The position numbers and the translations under genes are program-made. DNA of 39,269 bases from Methanosaeta sp. PtaU1.Bin112 (GTDB lineage: Archaea; Halobacteriota; Methanosarcinia; Methanotrichales; Methanotrichaceae): NCBI GenBank assembly GCA_002067705.1, contig MVRL01000172.1, positions 1-39,269 of the forward strand. The letters are read 5' to 3'. Shown here piece by piece: positions 31,360-38,770 of this stretch. Position 1 is the first letter of the stretch; each line of letters starts with the position of its first letter. The notes beneath the pieces were generated by a model. It saw nothing but the letters and a program-made list of their open reading frames with translations, ran no database searches and was not told where the DNA came from.

Positions 31360-31764
31360 ATGGCCGGCGAACCGATGGCAGTGGTTAATTATATACCACT
31401 TATTATATTTTTGATAATGGGAGCTATAGTGCCCATTGCTGCCTTGGCTGTTATCAAAATCATAGCGCCTAACAGGCCAAAGCGTCAAAAGCTATCGACA
31501 TACGAAGGCGGGCTCAAGCCCATCCGCGACGCTAAGATCCAGTATAGTGTTCAATATTACCTTTTCGCAATCGTTTTTGTTATATTCGATGTTGAGGTTT
31601 TATTCTTGTATCCCTGGATCTATGTGTACGCGAATAAGGTCATGCAACAGTTCATGGTCTTCGGACTCATGAATTACGCCGTCTTCGAGATGCTCCTATT
31701 CATCGTTGTACTGCTGGTAGGACTTGTCTATGCTATCAAGAAGGAGGCTTTGCGTTGGGTATAA
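31360..31764 (+). CDS. fpoA: F420H2 dehydrogenase-type complex subunit A (NuoA-like)
   Basis: This 134-aa membrane subunit has three transmembrane segments (IPLIIFLIMGAIVPIAALAVIKII, YYLFAIVFVIFDVEVLFLYPWIYVY, FGLMNYAVFEMLLFIVVLLVGLVYA). The YEGGLKP loop and the FDVEVLFLYPW motif are typical of NuoA/ND3. It forms part of the proton-translocating membrane arm near the methanophenazine site. The ATG at 31360 has GGAGGG seven bases ahead. First gene of the operon; no fpoF is seen upstream. Confidence 0.94.
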   Translation: MAGEPMAVVNYIPLIIFLIMGAIVPIAALAVIKIIAPNRPKRQKLSTYEGGLKPIRDAKIQYSVQYYLFAIVFVIFDVEVLFLYPWIYVYANKVMQQFMVFGLMNYAVFEMLLFIVVLLVGLVYAIKKEALRWV

Positions 31765-32327
31765 GCGATGTCATACCCGTGCCCGTAGCAATCGATGAGG
31801 AGATTGAGAAGTGGACCATATTCGGCCAACCAGTGGCCGAGGTTTGGTTCACGACTACGGAGAAGATCCATCAAATAATCCAGATGGGACCTATTAAGAA
31901 CATATTCAACTGGGGCAGAAAGAATTCTGTATACTTTCTGATGCAGCCCATGGGGTGCTGCGGTGTGGAGATGTTCGTATTCGGAGCTGCACCCTATGAC
32001 AGCGATCGATTCGGGTGCATTCCCAGAAACACACCCCGCCAAACGGATGTGATGATCATCTCTGGATACCTGACCAGAAAGTACCTGCCGGTATTCAAGA
32101 ATCTCTGGGAGCAGATGCCTGAGCCGAAGTGGTGCATTGCCATCGGCGAGTGCGCCATCTCGGGCGGACCTTTCTATGATTCCTATAATATCGTCCAGAA
32201 TACAGGCGACTATTTCCCAATTGATGTCTATATTCCAGGATGTCCGCCCAGGCCTGAGCAGTTCCTTGAAGGTCTCATCAATCTGCAGGAAAAGATCAAG
32301 CAGCGCAAGGACCTGAGGGAATACTAG
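31755..32327 (+). CDS. fpoB: F420H2 dehydrogenase-type complex subunit B (NuoB-like, N2 cluster)
   Basis: This 190-aa subunit binds the terminal [4Fe-4S] cluster N2 that passes electrons to methanophenazine. Ligand motifs are present: MGCCGVEMF (tandem Cys), GECAIS and PGCPPRPEQFLEGL. The start is TTG at 31755: AAGGAGG at 31741-31747 is at ideal spacing and no ATG fits. It overlaps fpoA by 10 nt. Confidence 0.95.
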   Translation: MGISDVIPVPVAIDEEIEKWTIFGQPVAEVWFTTTEKIHQIIQMGPIKNIFNWGRKNSVYFLMQPMGCCGVEMFVFGAAPYDSDRFGCIPRNTPRQTDVMIISGYLTRKYLPVFKNLWEQMPEPKWCIAIGECAISGGPFYDSYNIVQNTGDYFPIDVYIPGCPPRPEQFLEGLINLQEKIKQRKDLREY

Positions 32328-34067: not shown

Positions 34068-35120
34068 TTGGACGGATTAATAGAGATCATCACTGCATTT
34101 GCCGCCCAGGAGCCGGGGATATTCGCCCTCATCATAGGCATAATCGGGGCGGCCGTGCTTTCTGCCGTGGTCAACGTAGGTGCCATGGCAGTCATCTGGG
34201 CAGACAGAAAGGTAATGAGCGATTTCTGCAACCGGTTTGGTCCTAATCGTGTGGGTGGAAGATGGGGCATATTGCAGTTGGGTGCCGATGCCATCAAGCT
34301 CTTTACCAAAGAAGATGTCATTCCAGCCGGCGTTGATAAGGGCGTTTATGTATGGGCACCTATCGTCGCCTCGGCAGGCACCATGCTGGTGGCTGCAGCT
34401 ATACCATTCGGAGCGCTGCACATCGGCGGAAAGGATTATCCCCTTGTCGTGGCCAATATGGACATCAGCGCTTTCTATGTGGAAGCAGCTCTATCCATTA
34501 TGTCCATAGCCGTCTTCATGGCAGGATACAGCTCCAACAATAAGTACTCGATTTTAGGAGCCTTCCGTGGCATGGCCAGGATGATTGCCTATGAAGTTCC
34601 AATGGGAGTCTGCGTCATATCGGTAGCGGTAATGGCACACAGCCTAAATCTGGTGGAAATCGTGCAGAGCCAGACAGTCTGGTATGCATTTGCCCAGCCG
34701 CTGGGGTTCATCATATTCCTGATTGCCCTGGTTACCGATCTGGGAAGGATTCCCTTTGACCAGAGCGAGGCAGAAGAAGAGATCATATGCGGCTACAACA
34801 CCGAGTACAGTGGAATCAGGTGGGGCCTGCTCTACTTCCAGGAGTACAACAACTTCCTTCTGGGATCCATTCTCGTCTCTCTCCTGTTCCTGGGTGGCTG
34901 GCATGGACCGATCATACCTATACCCCTTCTGGACATGATCTCGCCGATGATCTGGCTCGTCATGAAGGTAGTGATCGTAATATGGTTCATCATATTGGTG
35001 AGAGCAGCGCTCTTCAGATTGAGAATCGATCAGGTAACTGACCTGGGATGGAAATGGATGCTGCCACTCTCCCTTGTGAATCTGGGATGGGCGGTCATTA
35101 TCGGGTCTTACTTTGCATGA
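34068..35120 (+). CDS. fpoH: F420H2 dehydrogenase-type complex subunit H (NuoH-like)
   Basis: This 350-aa subunit connects the peripheral and membrane arms and forms much of the acceptor site. About eight membrane segments are visible. Typical segments are VIWADRKVMSDFCNRFGPNRVGG, GILQLGADAIKLFTKEDVIP, NNKYSILGAFRGMARMIAYEVPMGVCV, RIPFDQSEAEEEIICGYNTEYSGIRWGLLYF and ALFRLRIDQVTDLGWKWMLPLSLVNL. The start is TTG at 34068, after TAGGAGGGAGAGGA. The gap to fpoCD is 12 nt. Confidence 0.95.
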   Translation: MDGLIEIITAFAAQEPGIFALIIGIIGAAVLSAVVNVGAMAVIWADRKVMSDFCNRFGPNRVGGRWGILQLGADAIKLFTKEDVIPAGVDKGVYVWAPIVASAGTMLVAAAIPFGALHIGGKDYPLVVANMDISAFYVEAALSIMSIAVFMAGYSSNNKYSILGAFRGMARMIAYEVPMGVCVISVAVMAHSLNLVEIVQSQTVWYAFAQPLGFIIFLIALVTDLGRIPFDQSEAEEEIICGYNTEYSGIRWGLLYFQEYNNFLLGSILVSLLFLGGWHGPIIPIPLLDMISPMIWLVMKVVIVIWFIILVRAALFRLRIDQVTDLGWKWMLPLSLVNLGWAVIIGSYFA

Positions 35121-35132
35121 GGTGGCAATAAG

Positions 35133-35729
35133 ATGCTCAAGAGAAAGATGATAAAGAACTTCACCTGGCCTTTAAAGATAGCCACGAGGGAGATCGAGGT
35201 CACGAGGCTTTATCCTGAAGTGATGATGGAGCTTCCGGCCGTAGAGAGAGGCATTCATGAATTGGATGCCACCACATGCATCGGTTGCGGAACCTGTGCC
35301 AGAGTCTGTCCCAATAGCTGCATCGAGATGGTTAATTTCAAATTTGGAAATCCTCTGAAGAACAAGAAGATGCAGTTTCCACAGATCGACTTCGGACGGT
35401 GTATGTTCTGCGGGCTGTGCGTTGACGAGTGCCCTGTTGAATGCCTGAAGATGGGCAAGAAGGTCATTATGGCAGGCTGGGAGAGAAAGGACATCATAAA
35501 GGGTCCTGACTTCCTGGCGACCAAGAGGTTCTCCGCCAAAGAGGTTGCAGACCTCGAGGCTGAGGCCAAGAGGATAGCTGCCGAGAAGGCTGCAGCCAAG
35601 AAAACCGCTGCCAAAGAAGGTGCTGCGAAAGAGGGCGCCGCCAAAAAACCTGCCAAAGAAGGTGCAGCTCCTGCCAAGAAAAAAGCAAATGGCGCAGAGG
35701 CCAAGCCTAAAGAAGGAGGTGCTGCCTGA
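35133..35729 (+). CDS. fpoI: F420H2 dehydrogenase-type subunit I (NuoI-like) with Lys/Ala-rich tail
   Basis: This 198-aa ferredoxin-type subunit holds two [4Fe-4S] clusters. Ligand motifs are C49-I-G-C52-G-T-C55-ARV-C59 with C63, and C90-MF-C93-GL-C96-VDE-C100 with C104. The core ends around residue 135. Residues about 142-198 are a low-complexity tail of Ala, Lys, Glu and Gly with repeated AAKEG and PAKEG units. Ordinary NuoI/FpoI lack it. The basic tail could dock an acidic ferredoxin, which would suit a complex without FpoF. This is an inference. Start ATG 35133; TGA overlaps the next ATG. Confidence 0.95.
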   Translation: MLKRKMIKNFTWPLKIATREIEVTRLYPEVMMELPAVERGIHELDATTCIGCGTCARVCPNSCIEMVNFKFGNPLKNKKMQFPQIDFGRCMFCGLCVDECPVECLKMGKKVIMAGWERKDIIKGPDFLATKRFSAKEVADLEAEAKRIAAEKAAAKKTAAKEGAAKEGAAKKPAKEGAAPAKKKANGAEAKPKEGGAA

Positions 35730-36160
35730 TGTCATCAAAAGAGTCGGGCGCAAATGTCATTCGGACCATCTTCGAGCTACTGGTTTTGCTTGCAGCTTTG
35801 GGAGTGATCTTTGGCGGCCTGGCGGCGATTGTACTACTATCACCCTGGTCGCAAACGGTCCTGGATAAACTTCTTGCCTTAGATATACGATTTGCCATCG
35901 AGCTTCTGGCATTCCTGGCCATAGCGGCAATAATCGTCCTGCTATCAGCGCTTGTGGTCTATGCAAAAAATATCGTACATAGCGCTCTTTATCTGCTGGG
36001 AAGCTTTGCCGGTGTGGCTGCCCTGTACATTATGCTGAATGCACCCTTTGTGGGCGTAGCTCAGGTTCTGGTGTACATTGGAGCCGTCGGAGTTCTGATG
36101 CTCTTCGCAGTGATGCTCACAAGGAAGACGATTTTGGAGGAGTCCCATGGTGAGATTTAA
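35729..36160 (+). CDS. fpoJ1: F420H2 dehydrogenase-type subunit J, N-terminal part (NuoJ-like)
   Basis: This 143-aa membrane subunit has four hydrophobic segments (VLLAALGVIFGGLAAIVLLSPW, IELLAFLAIAAIIVLLSALVVY, SALYLLGSFAGVAALYIML, VLVYIGAVGVLMLFAVML). It corresponds to the first part of NuoJ/ND6, including the VYIGAVGVLMLFAVM motif around the pi-bulge helix. The second part is encoded separately by the next gene. The ATG at 35729 overlaps the fpoI TGA (TGATG), and the ends of the two J genes overlap by 14 nt. Confidence 0.93.
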   Translation: MSSKESGANVIRTIFELLVLLAALGVIFGGLAAIVLLSPWSQTVLDKLLALDIRFAIELLAFLAIAAIIVLLSALVVYAKNIVHSALYLLGSFAGVAALYIMLNAPFVGVAQVLVYIGAVGVLMLFAVMLTRKTILEESHGEI

Positions 36161-36410
36161 GATAATCATCATTACCCTGGCATTTCTGGCGGCCTTATTC
36201 GCCTCGCTCTCACTTTCCGATTGGGGAGCAGGAAAAGAACAGCCGCTCAGCTTTGAGCCGAGGGAAGGATTGAGGTTGCCGGAAAGCGGCATTGGAGACG
36301 TGGGATTTGAGATATTCACCTCTTACGTCTTTGCCTTTGAGATCTTGGCCCTGGTTTTGACGGCAGCTCTTGTGGGAGCGGTTTGGGTTGCTCGAAAGGA
36401 GGCTGCCTGA
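36147..36410 (+). CDS. fpoJ2: F420H2 dehydrogenase-type subunit J, C-terminal part
   Basis: This 87-aa protein has two membrane segments: IIIITLAFLAALFASLSLSDW and FTSYVFAFEILALVLTAALVGAVWVARKEA. It supplies the last helices of NuoJ as a separate polypeptide. The start ATG at 36147 is preceded by GGAGGAG and overlaps fpoJ1 by 14 nt, so translation is coupled. The split J is a known feature of the Methanosarcina-type operon. Confidence 0.9.
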   Translation: MVRFKIIIITLAFLAALFASLSLSDWGAGKEQPLSFEPREGLRLPESGIGDVGFEIFTSYVFAFEILALVLTAALVGAVWVARKEAA

Positions 36411-36425
36411 GGAGGGCGACAACTC

Positions 36426-36452
36426 ATGACAAGGAGGGATATTAACCGATGA
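36426..36452 (+). other. Eight-codon mini-ORF coupled to fpoK
   Basis: ATG at 36426 opens MTRRDINR and stops at TGA 36450-36452, overlapping the fpoK ATG (36449) as ATGA. GAGGAGGGC (36410-36418) lies at proper spacing for its own ribosome-binding site. The fpoK ribosome-binding site AAGGAGGG lies inside it. It may tune fpoK translation; it is also possibly chance. Confidence 0.3.
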
Positions 36453-36751
36453 TACCGTTGGAGCTTTATATACTGCTAGCATCCACGATGTTCACCATCG
36501 GCTTGTACGGACTCGTTACTCAAAAGAACGGTGTCAAGCTCATGATGTGCATCGAGCTCTTGCTCAATAGCGCCAACATCAATCTTGTCGCCTTCTCAGC
36601 ATATCAGCCCAATGTGAACGGTCAGGTCTTTGCCCTGTTCTCCATTGCATTGGCGGCGGCTGAAGCAGGCGTTGGATTTGCTATATTGATTGCCCTGTAC
36701 AGGCTATACGGAACAATAGACCTGGACAATATTAACACCATGAGGTGGTAA
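36449..36751 (+). CDS. fpoK: F420H2 dehydrogenase-type subunit K (NuoK-like)
   Basis: This 100-aa subunit has three membrane segments. Motifs include [41 protein letters not shown] with the conserved Glu (CIELLLN) of the proton path, and [28 protein letters not shown]. It forms part of the proton-pumping membrane arm. The ATG at 36449 follows AAGGAGGG at eleven bases. The gap to fpoL is 3 nt. Confidence 0.95.
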
Positions 36752-36754
36752 GGA

Positions 36755-38770
36755 ATGTACGCCGATTATGCATATCTGATTGTGGCGCTTCCTGTACTGG
36801 CCTTCCTTCTATGCCTTTTCCTAGGCTGGAATTTGCCCAGAGGAGGCGGATTCATTACCGTCCTGGCAACCCTTGGTGCGTTCATAGTATCTCTTGGGAT
36901 ATTCACTGAGACCTATCCCCATGAGATCGTCCATCAATCGATGCACTGGTTTGCCAACTTCAATGTGGGCATATTGATAGACCCACTGGCGCTCGTAATG
37001 CTGCTCATGGTGTCGTTTGTCGTCACACTGATCCACATCTACGGCAATGGCTACATGAATGGCGATCCAGGTGCAGCCAGGTACTTCGCTGAAGCGGCCC
37101 TGTTTTCGGCTTCCATGCTGGGCCTGGTATATGCCGATAATCTCCTTCAGCTCTTCATATTCTGGGAGCTGGTGGGATTGTGTTCTTATCTCTTGATCGG
37201 CTTCTGGTACAGAAAGCCATCAGCAGCCGCAGCTGCTAAGAAAGCTTTTCTGACAACGCGCGTAGGCGACGTTCTATTCCTGGCAGGCATAATTCTGCTC
37301 TACAATAACCTGGCAGCTTTGAACCTCGACCTCAAGGCAGGAGAGTATCTCTTGCAGTTCCCGGTGATCTATGCCCATATCACCCAGATCCCAGCCGATC
37401 AGCTGACGCTCATTGCTCTGGGATTACTGGGCGGCGCAGTAGGCAAATCAGGTCAGTTCCCCCTGCATGTCTGGCTTCCTGATGCTATGGAAGGCCCAAC
37501 CACCGTCTCAGCCATGATCCATGCTGCGACAATGGTTACAGCAGGTGTCTACCTGGTAGCAAGAATGTTCCCGCTCTTCTACGCCGCGCCCTATGGGCTG
37601 ACAGCTGTAGCTGCCGTTGGTGCATTCACCGCCCTGTTCGCTGCGACCATGGGCCTCACTGCCTTCGATATTAAACGGGTGCTGGCATTCTCCACAGTCT
37701 CGCAACTAGGCTTCATGATGGCCGGCCTGGGCGCTGGTGCAGCTGTGGGCGCAATGGCGGTAGGCGTTTCCATGTTCCACCTCATTGGCCACTCCTTCTT
37801 CAAAGCCCTGCTCTTCCTCTGTGCCGGCTCGGTCATTCACGCCGTCAACACAAACGATCTGCGAGAGATGGGAGGGGTTGGAAAGTACATGAAGTGGACC
37901 ATGTATACCATGCTGATAGGCTCCTTATCCCTGGCAGGATTCCCTCTGTTTACGGGCTTCTTCACCAAGGATGAGATCATCTTGATTGCCTATGAGTATG
38001 GTACAGCGATCAACTTCCTGCCCTACATATTCCTGGTCGTGGCTGCAATTCTGACAGCGATCTATACCTTCAGGATGTGGTTCTCGGTATTTACAGGAAA
38101 AGAGAGATCCAATTACGGCAAGCATGAGTCCCCCTGGGTCATGCTGGGGCCGCTGGTCATCCTGGCGGTATTTGCTTTCGGATTCGGAGTTGCAACCCAG
38201 AGCAATTTCTACAGCTATCTCGACTCAAACTTCGAGCATTACGATGTCGACTTCGCAGAGCTTTCTGCTATCGGTGGACACGCACTTGAAGAAGAGCACG
38301 CTGCTGCTGAAGGAGAGCACGCCCCTGCAGCTGAGGGCGAGCATGGAGCGGAAGAGGAGCACAGCATACCCTGGTATATCCATAATCTGCCAATACTGAT
38401 AGCGATAGGCGGTATTCTCATTGCCGGCCTGTTCTACTGGGACAAGATCAAGAAATTCGATCCAAGCCAGGCAACAGGAGACAACGATCCGCTCAGGCGG
38501 ACGCTTCTCAAAGGCTACTATCAGCACGAAATTCTGACAGGCTGGTTCGCCGAGACCGTTGTTTATGGCACGGCTCTGATCTGCAACATGATAGACATCA
38601 AGCTGGTAGATGGCTGGCTCAACTGGCTATCGGCCTGGGTCATGGGATTCGCTCAGCATGTCAGAAAGGTTCAGACCGGTGTGGTGCAGAATTATGTAAC
38701 CGCACTGGTTCTAGGAGTCGTGGTGCTGGTGGTTGTAATTACTCTGGCTATGGAGGTGGGCCTGGTATGA
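36755..38770 (+). CDS. fpoL: F420H2 dehydrogenase-type subunit L (NuoL-like antiporter) with His/Glu-rich insert
   Basis: This 671-aa antiporter-like subunit of the membrane arm has the MRP-type core: FIFWELVGLCSYLLIGFWY, GKSGQFPLHVWLPDAMEGPTTVSAMIHAATMVTAGVYLVARM, LAFSTVSQLGFMMAGLG, GHSFFKALLFLCAGSVIHA and PLFTGFFTKDEII. The broken-helix lysines and the long lateral helix region (EHEILTGWFAE-like) fit NuoL. Residues about 505-535 hold an insert rich in His, Glu and Ala with repeated AEGEH units (from about 38270 to 38365). The stop overlaps the fpoM ATG (ATGA). Confidence 0.95.
   Translation: MYADYAYLIVALPVLAFLLCLFLGWNLPRGGGFITVLATLGAFIVSLGIFTETYPHEIVHQSMHWFANFNVGILIDPLALVMLLMVSFVVTLIHIYGNGYMNGDPGAARYFAEAALFSASMLGLVYADNLLQLFIFWELVGLCSYLLIGFWYRKPSAAAAAKKAFLTTRVGDVLFLAGIILLYNNLAALNLDLKAGEYLLQFPVIYAHITQIPADQLTLIALGLLGGAVGKSGQFPLHVWLPDAMEGPTTVSAMIHAATMVTAGVYLVARMFPLFYAAPYGLTAVAAVGAFTALFAATMGLTAFDIKRVLAFSTVSQLGFMMAGLGAGAAVGAMAVGVSMFHLIGHSFFKALLFLCAGSVIHAVNTNDLREMGGVGKYMKWTMYTMLIGSLSLAGFPLFTGFFTKDEIILIAYEYGTAINFLPYIFLVVAAILTAIYTFRMWFSVFTGKERSNYGKHESPWVMLGPLVILAVFAFGFGVATQSNFYSYLDSNFEHYDVDFAELSAIGGHALEEEHAAAEGEHAPAAEGEHGAEEEHSIPWYIHNLPILIAIGGILIAGLFYWDKIKKFDPSQATGDNDPLRRTLLKGYYQHEILTGWFAETVVYGTALICNMIDIKLVDGWLNWLSAWVMGFAQHVRKVQTGVVQNYVTALVLGVVVLVVVITLAMEVGLV

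Follow-up and report, generated by a model that had tools for sequence, protein, structure and literature searches.

The window, i.e., the whole stretch of 39,269 nucleotides that was analysed, belongs to a 3.44-Mb genome (99% complete) of a Methanothrix-type organism. Methanothrix is the source of a large share of biological methane. Fpo is the main energy-conserving complex of these acetate-consuming methanogens, with FpoI as its electron-entry subunit; FpoF is the usual F420-binding head. From position 31360 to the contig end, the window carries an operon for which Pfam matches gave the order fpoA-B-CD-H-I-J-J-K-L-M. The genes of this operon and the features found in fpoI are compiled in Table 1.

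Table 1. Genes of the fpo operon and features within fpoI, with positions in the window
Feature	Position	Strand	Evidence
fpoA	31360..31764	+	PF00507
fpoB	31755..32327	+	PF01058
fpoCD, 30-kDa and 49-kDa subunits fused, 570 aa	32343..34055	+	PF00329 + PF00346
fpoH	34068..35120	+	PF00146
fpoI, F420H2 dehydrogenase-type subunit I, tail-bearing, 198 aa	35133..35729	+	translation; Pfam Fer4; NCBIfam FpoI 108 bits; NuoI/NdhI fold
First [4Fe-4S] motif CIGCGTCARVCP, residues 49-60	35277..35312	+	translation; Cys invariant in both alignments
Inter-cluster hairpin KFGNPLKNKKM, residues 70-80, candidate ferredoxin-docking element	35340..35372	+	NdhI alignments; loop located between strands 64-69 and 80-86
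Second [4Fe-4S] motif CMFCGLCVDECP, residues 90-101	35400..35435	+	translation
Proximal tail (residues 129-167) under purifying selection, with a helix predicted at 135-167	35517..35633	+	AlphaFold2; dN/dS 0.054
Weak 15-bp tandem repeat encoding AAK(K/E)x	35577..35665	+	repeat units match 63-73%
Distal tail (residues 168-198) with predicted disorder, a net charge of +5 (8 K, 3 E), and variable length and sequence	35634..35726	+	pLDDT 54-57; dN/dS 0.19
fpoJ, N-terminal part	35729..36160	+	PF00499
fpoJ, C-terminal part	36147..36410	+	PF00499, 32.7 bits, slightly below cut-off
fpoK	36449..36751	+	PF00420
fpoL	36755..38770	+	PF00361/PF00662
fpoM, truncated by contig end	38767..39267	+	PF00361

The translation of fpoI contains two CxxCxxCxxxCP motifs (C49-P60 and C90-P101), and the Pfam matches of its neighbours place the gene within a complex I operon. 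The NuoI/NdhI fold was supported by Foldseek matches to subunit I of E. coli, NDH-1L, and Thermus (E to 8e-09). On the NCBIfam FpoI model NF040612, the protein stayed under the cut-off of 180 bits. Every listed FpoI of the Methanotrichaceae scored about 101-115 bits, whereas those of the Methanosarcinaceae reached 246-274 bits. The cut-off thus suits the Methanosarcinaceae only, and the window protein was placed in the wider NuoI/FpoI family. As the Methanotrichaceae proteins tested lie so far under the cut-off, they will be overlooked or misnamed by automatic annotation.

The fusion of FpoC and FpoD was present in the window and in three further Methanotrichaceae checked (three genera); the two proteins are encoded by separate genes in JdFR-19, the Methanosarcinaceae, and two other families. 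Besides the tail of FpoI, the fusion is the second alteration of the peripheral arm that is specific to this family. Elsewhere in the operon, FpoL contains an acidic, His-rich low-complexity insert (HALEEEHAAAEGEHAPAAEGEHGAEEEH, 38279-38362) ahead of its last transmembrane part. One genome of the same genus (G016) has the insert too, but two further Methanotrichaceae genera that were checked do not.

Following the usual ~28 residues after the cluster motifs, FpoI continues for 70 residues past the conserved core (129-198) and ends in ...AAAKKTAAKEGAAKEGAAKKPAKEGAAPAKKKANGAEAKPKEGGAA. The Lys/Ala-rich repeat tail noticed in an earlier, sequence-only reading of this DNA was thereby confirmed: its 70 residues include 25 A, 16 K, 2 R, 9 E, and 1 D, with AKEG occurring three times and AAKEG twice. 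Ten repeated 4-mers were counted, compared to a mean of 2.8 in composition-preserving shuffles (p=0.0016), and the complexity was 2.80 bits vs 3.87-4.10 bits in core windows of equal length. At the DNA level the array is weak and the Ala and Lys codons of the repeat are mixed, which argues against a recent slippage product. The mixed codons, together with the same tail in 43 family members, excluded recent slippage or an assembly artefact. No other match to the tail was found within the source genome, i.e., it is not a generic Lys/Ala tail there.

The tail had also been called basic, which was correct only in a mild sense. The net charge in the window protein is +8 over 70 residues; the helix is near-neutral (+1) and the short end is basic (+5), so that the basic excess is mostly distal. 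Across the family, the extension measures 52-96 residues beyond the core and contains 23% K and 18% D/E; its net charge is positive in 43/43 members, even though the sequence turns over, and ranges from +1 to +8, with only +1 to +5 in the M. harundinacea group. A strongly basic tail was therefore ruled out in favour of a polyampholyte.

An AlphaFold2 model of the window FpoI was computed from a 19-sequence alignment in which only two other rows were tailed. For the helix predicted at residues 135-167, the pLDDT values in blocks of ten residues were 87, 92, 96, and 77, the last at its end. For the FpoI of M. harundinacea, which is 50% identical to the window protein, a helix was predicted at residues 131-182. 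The helix is predicted with confidence in both proteins, but at pTM values of 0.62-0.66 the models do not fix its placement on the core. The tail may be a long A/E/K helix that projects from the fold. The first turns of the helix carry hydrophobic residues in a stripe (V138, L141, A145, and I148, assigned by eye), which suggests that the helix base packs on something.

Among 18 close relatives, dN/dS was 0.076 for the core, 0.054 for residues 129-167, and 0.19 for residues 168-198, at a dS near saturation. Raw pN, which is the safer comparison for this reason, amounted to 0.067, 0.071, and 0.200, respectively. The helix is accordingly constrained like the Fe-S domain and does not behave as neutral filler, and the distal end appears to be under looser, but some, constraint. 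The tail, described earlier as low-complexity, is not merely that, since a helix is predicted and residues 129-167 are as constrained as the core.

FpoI was recovered from 43/50 genomes of the Methanotrichaceae (11 genera) and from 197/238 genomes of the class Methanosarcinia. C-termini were compared for the 43 Methanotrichaceae proteins, two of the JdFR-19 family, and 52 from the five remaining families; L130, an additional FpoI with an aberrant end, was set aside. The tail was present in 43/43 Methanotrichaceae and 2/2 JdFR-19-clade proteins and in 0/52 of those from FpoF/FqoF-bearing families. The number of residues after the last Cys was 76-124 in tailed proteins and 32-52 in the others, with no overlap. 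M. harundinacea UBA475 is among the carriers, as are genomes that we take to be M. soehngenii GP6, M. thermoacetophila PT, and M. harundinacea 6Ac.

That no fpoF precedes the operon had been stated for the window and holds for the whole genome. The best FrhB-like protein scored there (365 aa) reached 191 bits on the NCBIfam FpoF model, compared to a cut-off of 475 bits. A 359-aa protein and two fragments were covered only by the genome-wide FpoF search, which found nothing. A 51-kDa NuoF-family head (PF01512) was likewise not found in the source genome. Among the best 8 candidates per genome, none scored above the FpoF cut-off in 50/50 Methanotrichaceae genomes, and no FpoF was found in any genome of the two tailed families. 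The model detected FpoF in the other families of the class, initially with the exception of the Methanoperedenaceae. These seemed to be FpoF-less at a threshold of 1e-60, but a direct search recovered an insertion-bearing FqoF in 13/14 re-tested genomes, so that they do not constitute a counter-example with neither FpoF nor tail. One genome (G105, 93% complete) was still without FqoF after the direct search.

In the Methanoperedenaceae genome G096, FqoF itself ends in a Pro/Lys/Ala-rich tail (PPPPPPPSAEKPAGEKPAAKV, L151). In its relatives, the match to FqoF falls into two parts because of an additional insertion.

Across the Methanosarcinia, the tail thus tracks the absence of FpoF (45/45 vs 0/52), a comparison that the earlier reading had suggested. 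The same tail in FpoF-bearing species, named beforehand as evidence against a link, was not seen in any of the 52 FpoI sampled from FpoF/FqoF-bearing families. Outside the class sample, Methanomassiliicoccales and 'Ca. Methylarchaeales' are reported to be FpoF-less too, as is Methermicoccus. In a tree of FpoB, C, D, H, I, K, and L, the JdFR-19 clade stood apart from the Methanotrichaceae with 84% support. As the sample is phylogenetically structured and this separation reaches only 84%, the correlation represents one or two events, not 45. The expectation that ordinary NuoI and FpoI lack a tail was correct for the 52 FpoI sampled but not for bacterial NuoI, many of which have 60-90 residues of other sequence after the last Cys. 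One of them, from a Candidatus Zixiibacteriota MAG (L233, 1474-2145), ends in a Lys/Pro/Glu-rich low-complexity tail of ~75 residues. Complex I genomes of Nitrosopumilus and Njordarchaeota were without the 51-kDa head and also without a Lys-rich tail.

The Methanosarcina Fpo has an orthologous FpoI in the same operon position, with two clusters and a hairpin of nearly equal length (29 vs 30 aa between the motifs). It differs in the presence of FpoF, in separate FpoC and FpoD, and in an FpoI that ends 40-52 aa past the last Cys with a short, often acidic terminus. The Fpo of the JdFR-19 clade (Methanomicrobia archaeon JdFR-19) resembles the window in that no FpoF was found and FpoI has a Lys/Glu tail and an NP-KNKK hairpin. 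Its tail sequence is different (KKAEKKSEKKAE), FpoC and FpoD are separate, and the genomes are 89% and 59% complete. The Zixiibacteriota NuoI shares a long Lys/Pro/Glu-rich C-terminal tail on subunit I, but this tail is acidic overall and Pro-rich, and the genome encodes three 51-kDa (PF01512) proteins.

The better candidate for the docking of ferredoxin is the hairpin between the two cluster motifs. In the cyanobacterial NDH-1, which is headless, the residues touched by ferredoxin are Lys86, Lys89, and Lys91 in the hairpin of NdhI (PMC7021789; PMC6992706). One FpoI of the family was aligned to chloroplast NdhI, and chloroplast NdhI to NdhI of T. elongatus. In this alignment K76 of FpoI corresponds to Lys89, K78 to Lys91, and N73 to Lys86, i.e., two of the three positions are basic. 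NDH-1L is like Fpo' in being a headless complex I that receives electrons directly from an acidic ferredoxin via the hairpin of subunit I. It is unlike Fpo' in that additional subunits (NdhS, NdhV, and NdhO) surround the site in place of a Lys/Ala/Glu helix, and in its use of a [2Fe-2S] ferredoxin.

All Methanotrichaceae have the GNPLKNKK loop with at most small differences, and in JdFR-19 it is shifted by one. The FpoF-bearing Methanosarcinaceae have K-x-R in a loop that is one residue shorter, presumably the place where FpoF docks. The hairpin does not separate headless from headed Fpo for this reason, and it was excluded as a hallmark of the headless form. The sequence-only reading had suggested that the tail may recruit an acidic ferredoxin; judged from the alignments, the NPLKNKK hairpin is the likelier docking site. 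The premise of an acidic donor proved sound: a 2[4Fe-4S] ferredoxin of 59 aa encoded in the source genome has a net charge of -11 and a pI of 4.05. The same genome also encodes an 89-aa 2[4Fe-4S] ferredoxin whose hydrophobic N-terminus resembles a signal or anchor (C112:103892-104050).

A headless Fpo' was described for Methanothrix (Welte and Deppenmeier 2011, as cited in PMC3349665 and PMC12918732), with the same cluster without fpoF and in the same family that is tailed here. According to the citing papers, ferredoxin oxidation by the Methanothrix Fpo' is established from membrane assays; the ferredoxin:heterodisulfide oxidoreductase activity of M. thermophila and the truncated Fpo are cited there as well. 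The window FpoI would be the electron-entry subunit of such a Methanothrix-type complex, a ferredoxin:methanophenazine oxidoreductase. Acidic ferredoxin reduced by CODH/ACS would most likely dock on the basic hairpin (K70, K76, K78, and K79) above the first cluster, as in the cyanobacterial NDH-1, and electrons would pass along N6a-N6b-N2-methanophenazine. The helix base (135-148, with the hydrophobic residues named above) probably packs on the peripheral arm, and the remainder of the tail would extend outward as a charged helix, the short Lys-rich end of which is mobile. Such an arm would most likely assist in capturing or orienting ferredoxin where FpoF has left the site free, and possibly also brace the headless arm.

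We tentatively regard the tail as a lineage-specific, selected helical arm of the headless Fpo' that may aid the capture or orientation of ferredoxin. We give this role slightly less than an even chance, and rank it first and structural bracing second. The net charge of only +1 in some members and the small number of events (one or two) are points against it. A strict need for the tail is also contradicted by the complex I genomes of Nitrosopumilus and Njordarchaeota, which have neither the 51-kDa head nor a Lys-rich tail. In addition, the tail-less Fpo of an M. mazei delta-ech strain was reported to oxidise Fdred (PMC12918732, PMC12072023), which together with the Lys-rich tail of the Zixiibacteriota NuoI indicates that the FpoI tail is neither strictly required nor exclusive.

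The helix might instead brace the peripheral arm (FpoI with FpoB, FpoCD, and FpoH) in place of lost FpoF/FpoO contacts, the distal Lys/Ala stretch being a solubilising end with no role for ferredoxin. Such an account leaves unexplained why all distal ends have kept a positive net charge and a high Lys content, and why a similar Lys/Glu tail occurs in the JdFR-19 clade with its separate FpoC and FpoD. It would, however, fit the location of the constraint in the near-neutral helix and not in the basic end, the FpoC-FpoD fusion by which the same arm was otherwise remodelled in the Methanotrichaceae checked, and the extended C-termini of different sequence in bacterial NuoI. We consider a purely structural arm somewhat unlikely.

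A stronger form of the ferredoxin-capture reading relates to a genetic study of 2026, in which over-expression of Fpo' in M. acetivorans left acetoclastic growth unrestored and whose authors call for a Methanothrix-specific modification of Fpo' (PMC12918732). The tail is a specific, family-wide, and selected candidate for this modification. It could be what makes the headless Fpo a dedicated ferredoxin oxidase: a capture arm doing the job of NdhS/NdhV/NdhO, gained at the loss of FpoF, and needed for acetoclastic growth through Fpo'. In this far-reaching form the proposal is rather unlikely. As the tail is transferable into, or removable from, a genetically tractable methanogen, it is a testable candidate for adapting a headless complex to ferredoxin. 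The headless, ferredoxin-driven Fpo itself is already known. For the FpoI tail, with its strict distribution, helical character, and constraint, no description was found in the literature searched, and an earlier remark may exist in the primary work of 2011/2014.

It is quite unlikely that the tail is a low-complexity extension of little function, fixed in a common ancestor and drifting by repeat expansion, with shared ancestry accounting for the coincidence with FpoF loss. The strong purifying selection on residues 129-167, the retention in 43/43 members from 11 genera, the confident helix in two divergent members, and the lack of further tails of this kind elsewhere in the genome speak against drift, even though only one or two events occurred, the length varies by several dozen residues, AKEG is repeated, and the Zixiibacteriota NuoI has a comparable tail. 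Tethering of another partner, such as CODH/ACS, HdrDE, or a soluble FrhB-like detachable F420 head, is very unlikely: the genome encodes an FrhB-like protein of 365 aa that has an Fe-S domain at its N-terminus, and a detachable head of this kind was proposed for M. thermoacetophila (PMC10470525), but no sequence link between the tail and such partners was seen, and Fpo'-FrhB activity is disputed, as an fpoF mutant of M. mazei that still had FrhB was unable to oxidise F420H2 (PMC12072023).

The 365-aa protein (contig C107) has an FpoF-like layout but is closest to FrhB, with 263 bits compared to a cut-off of 269 bits. Similar proteins were present in the other genomes of the family that were searched.
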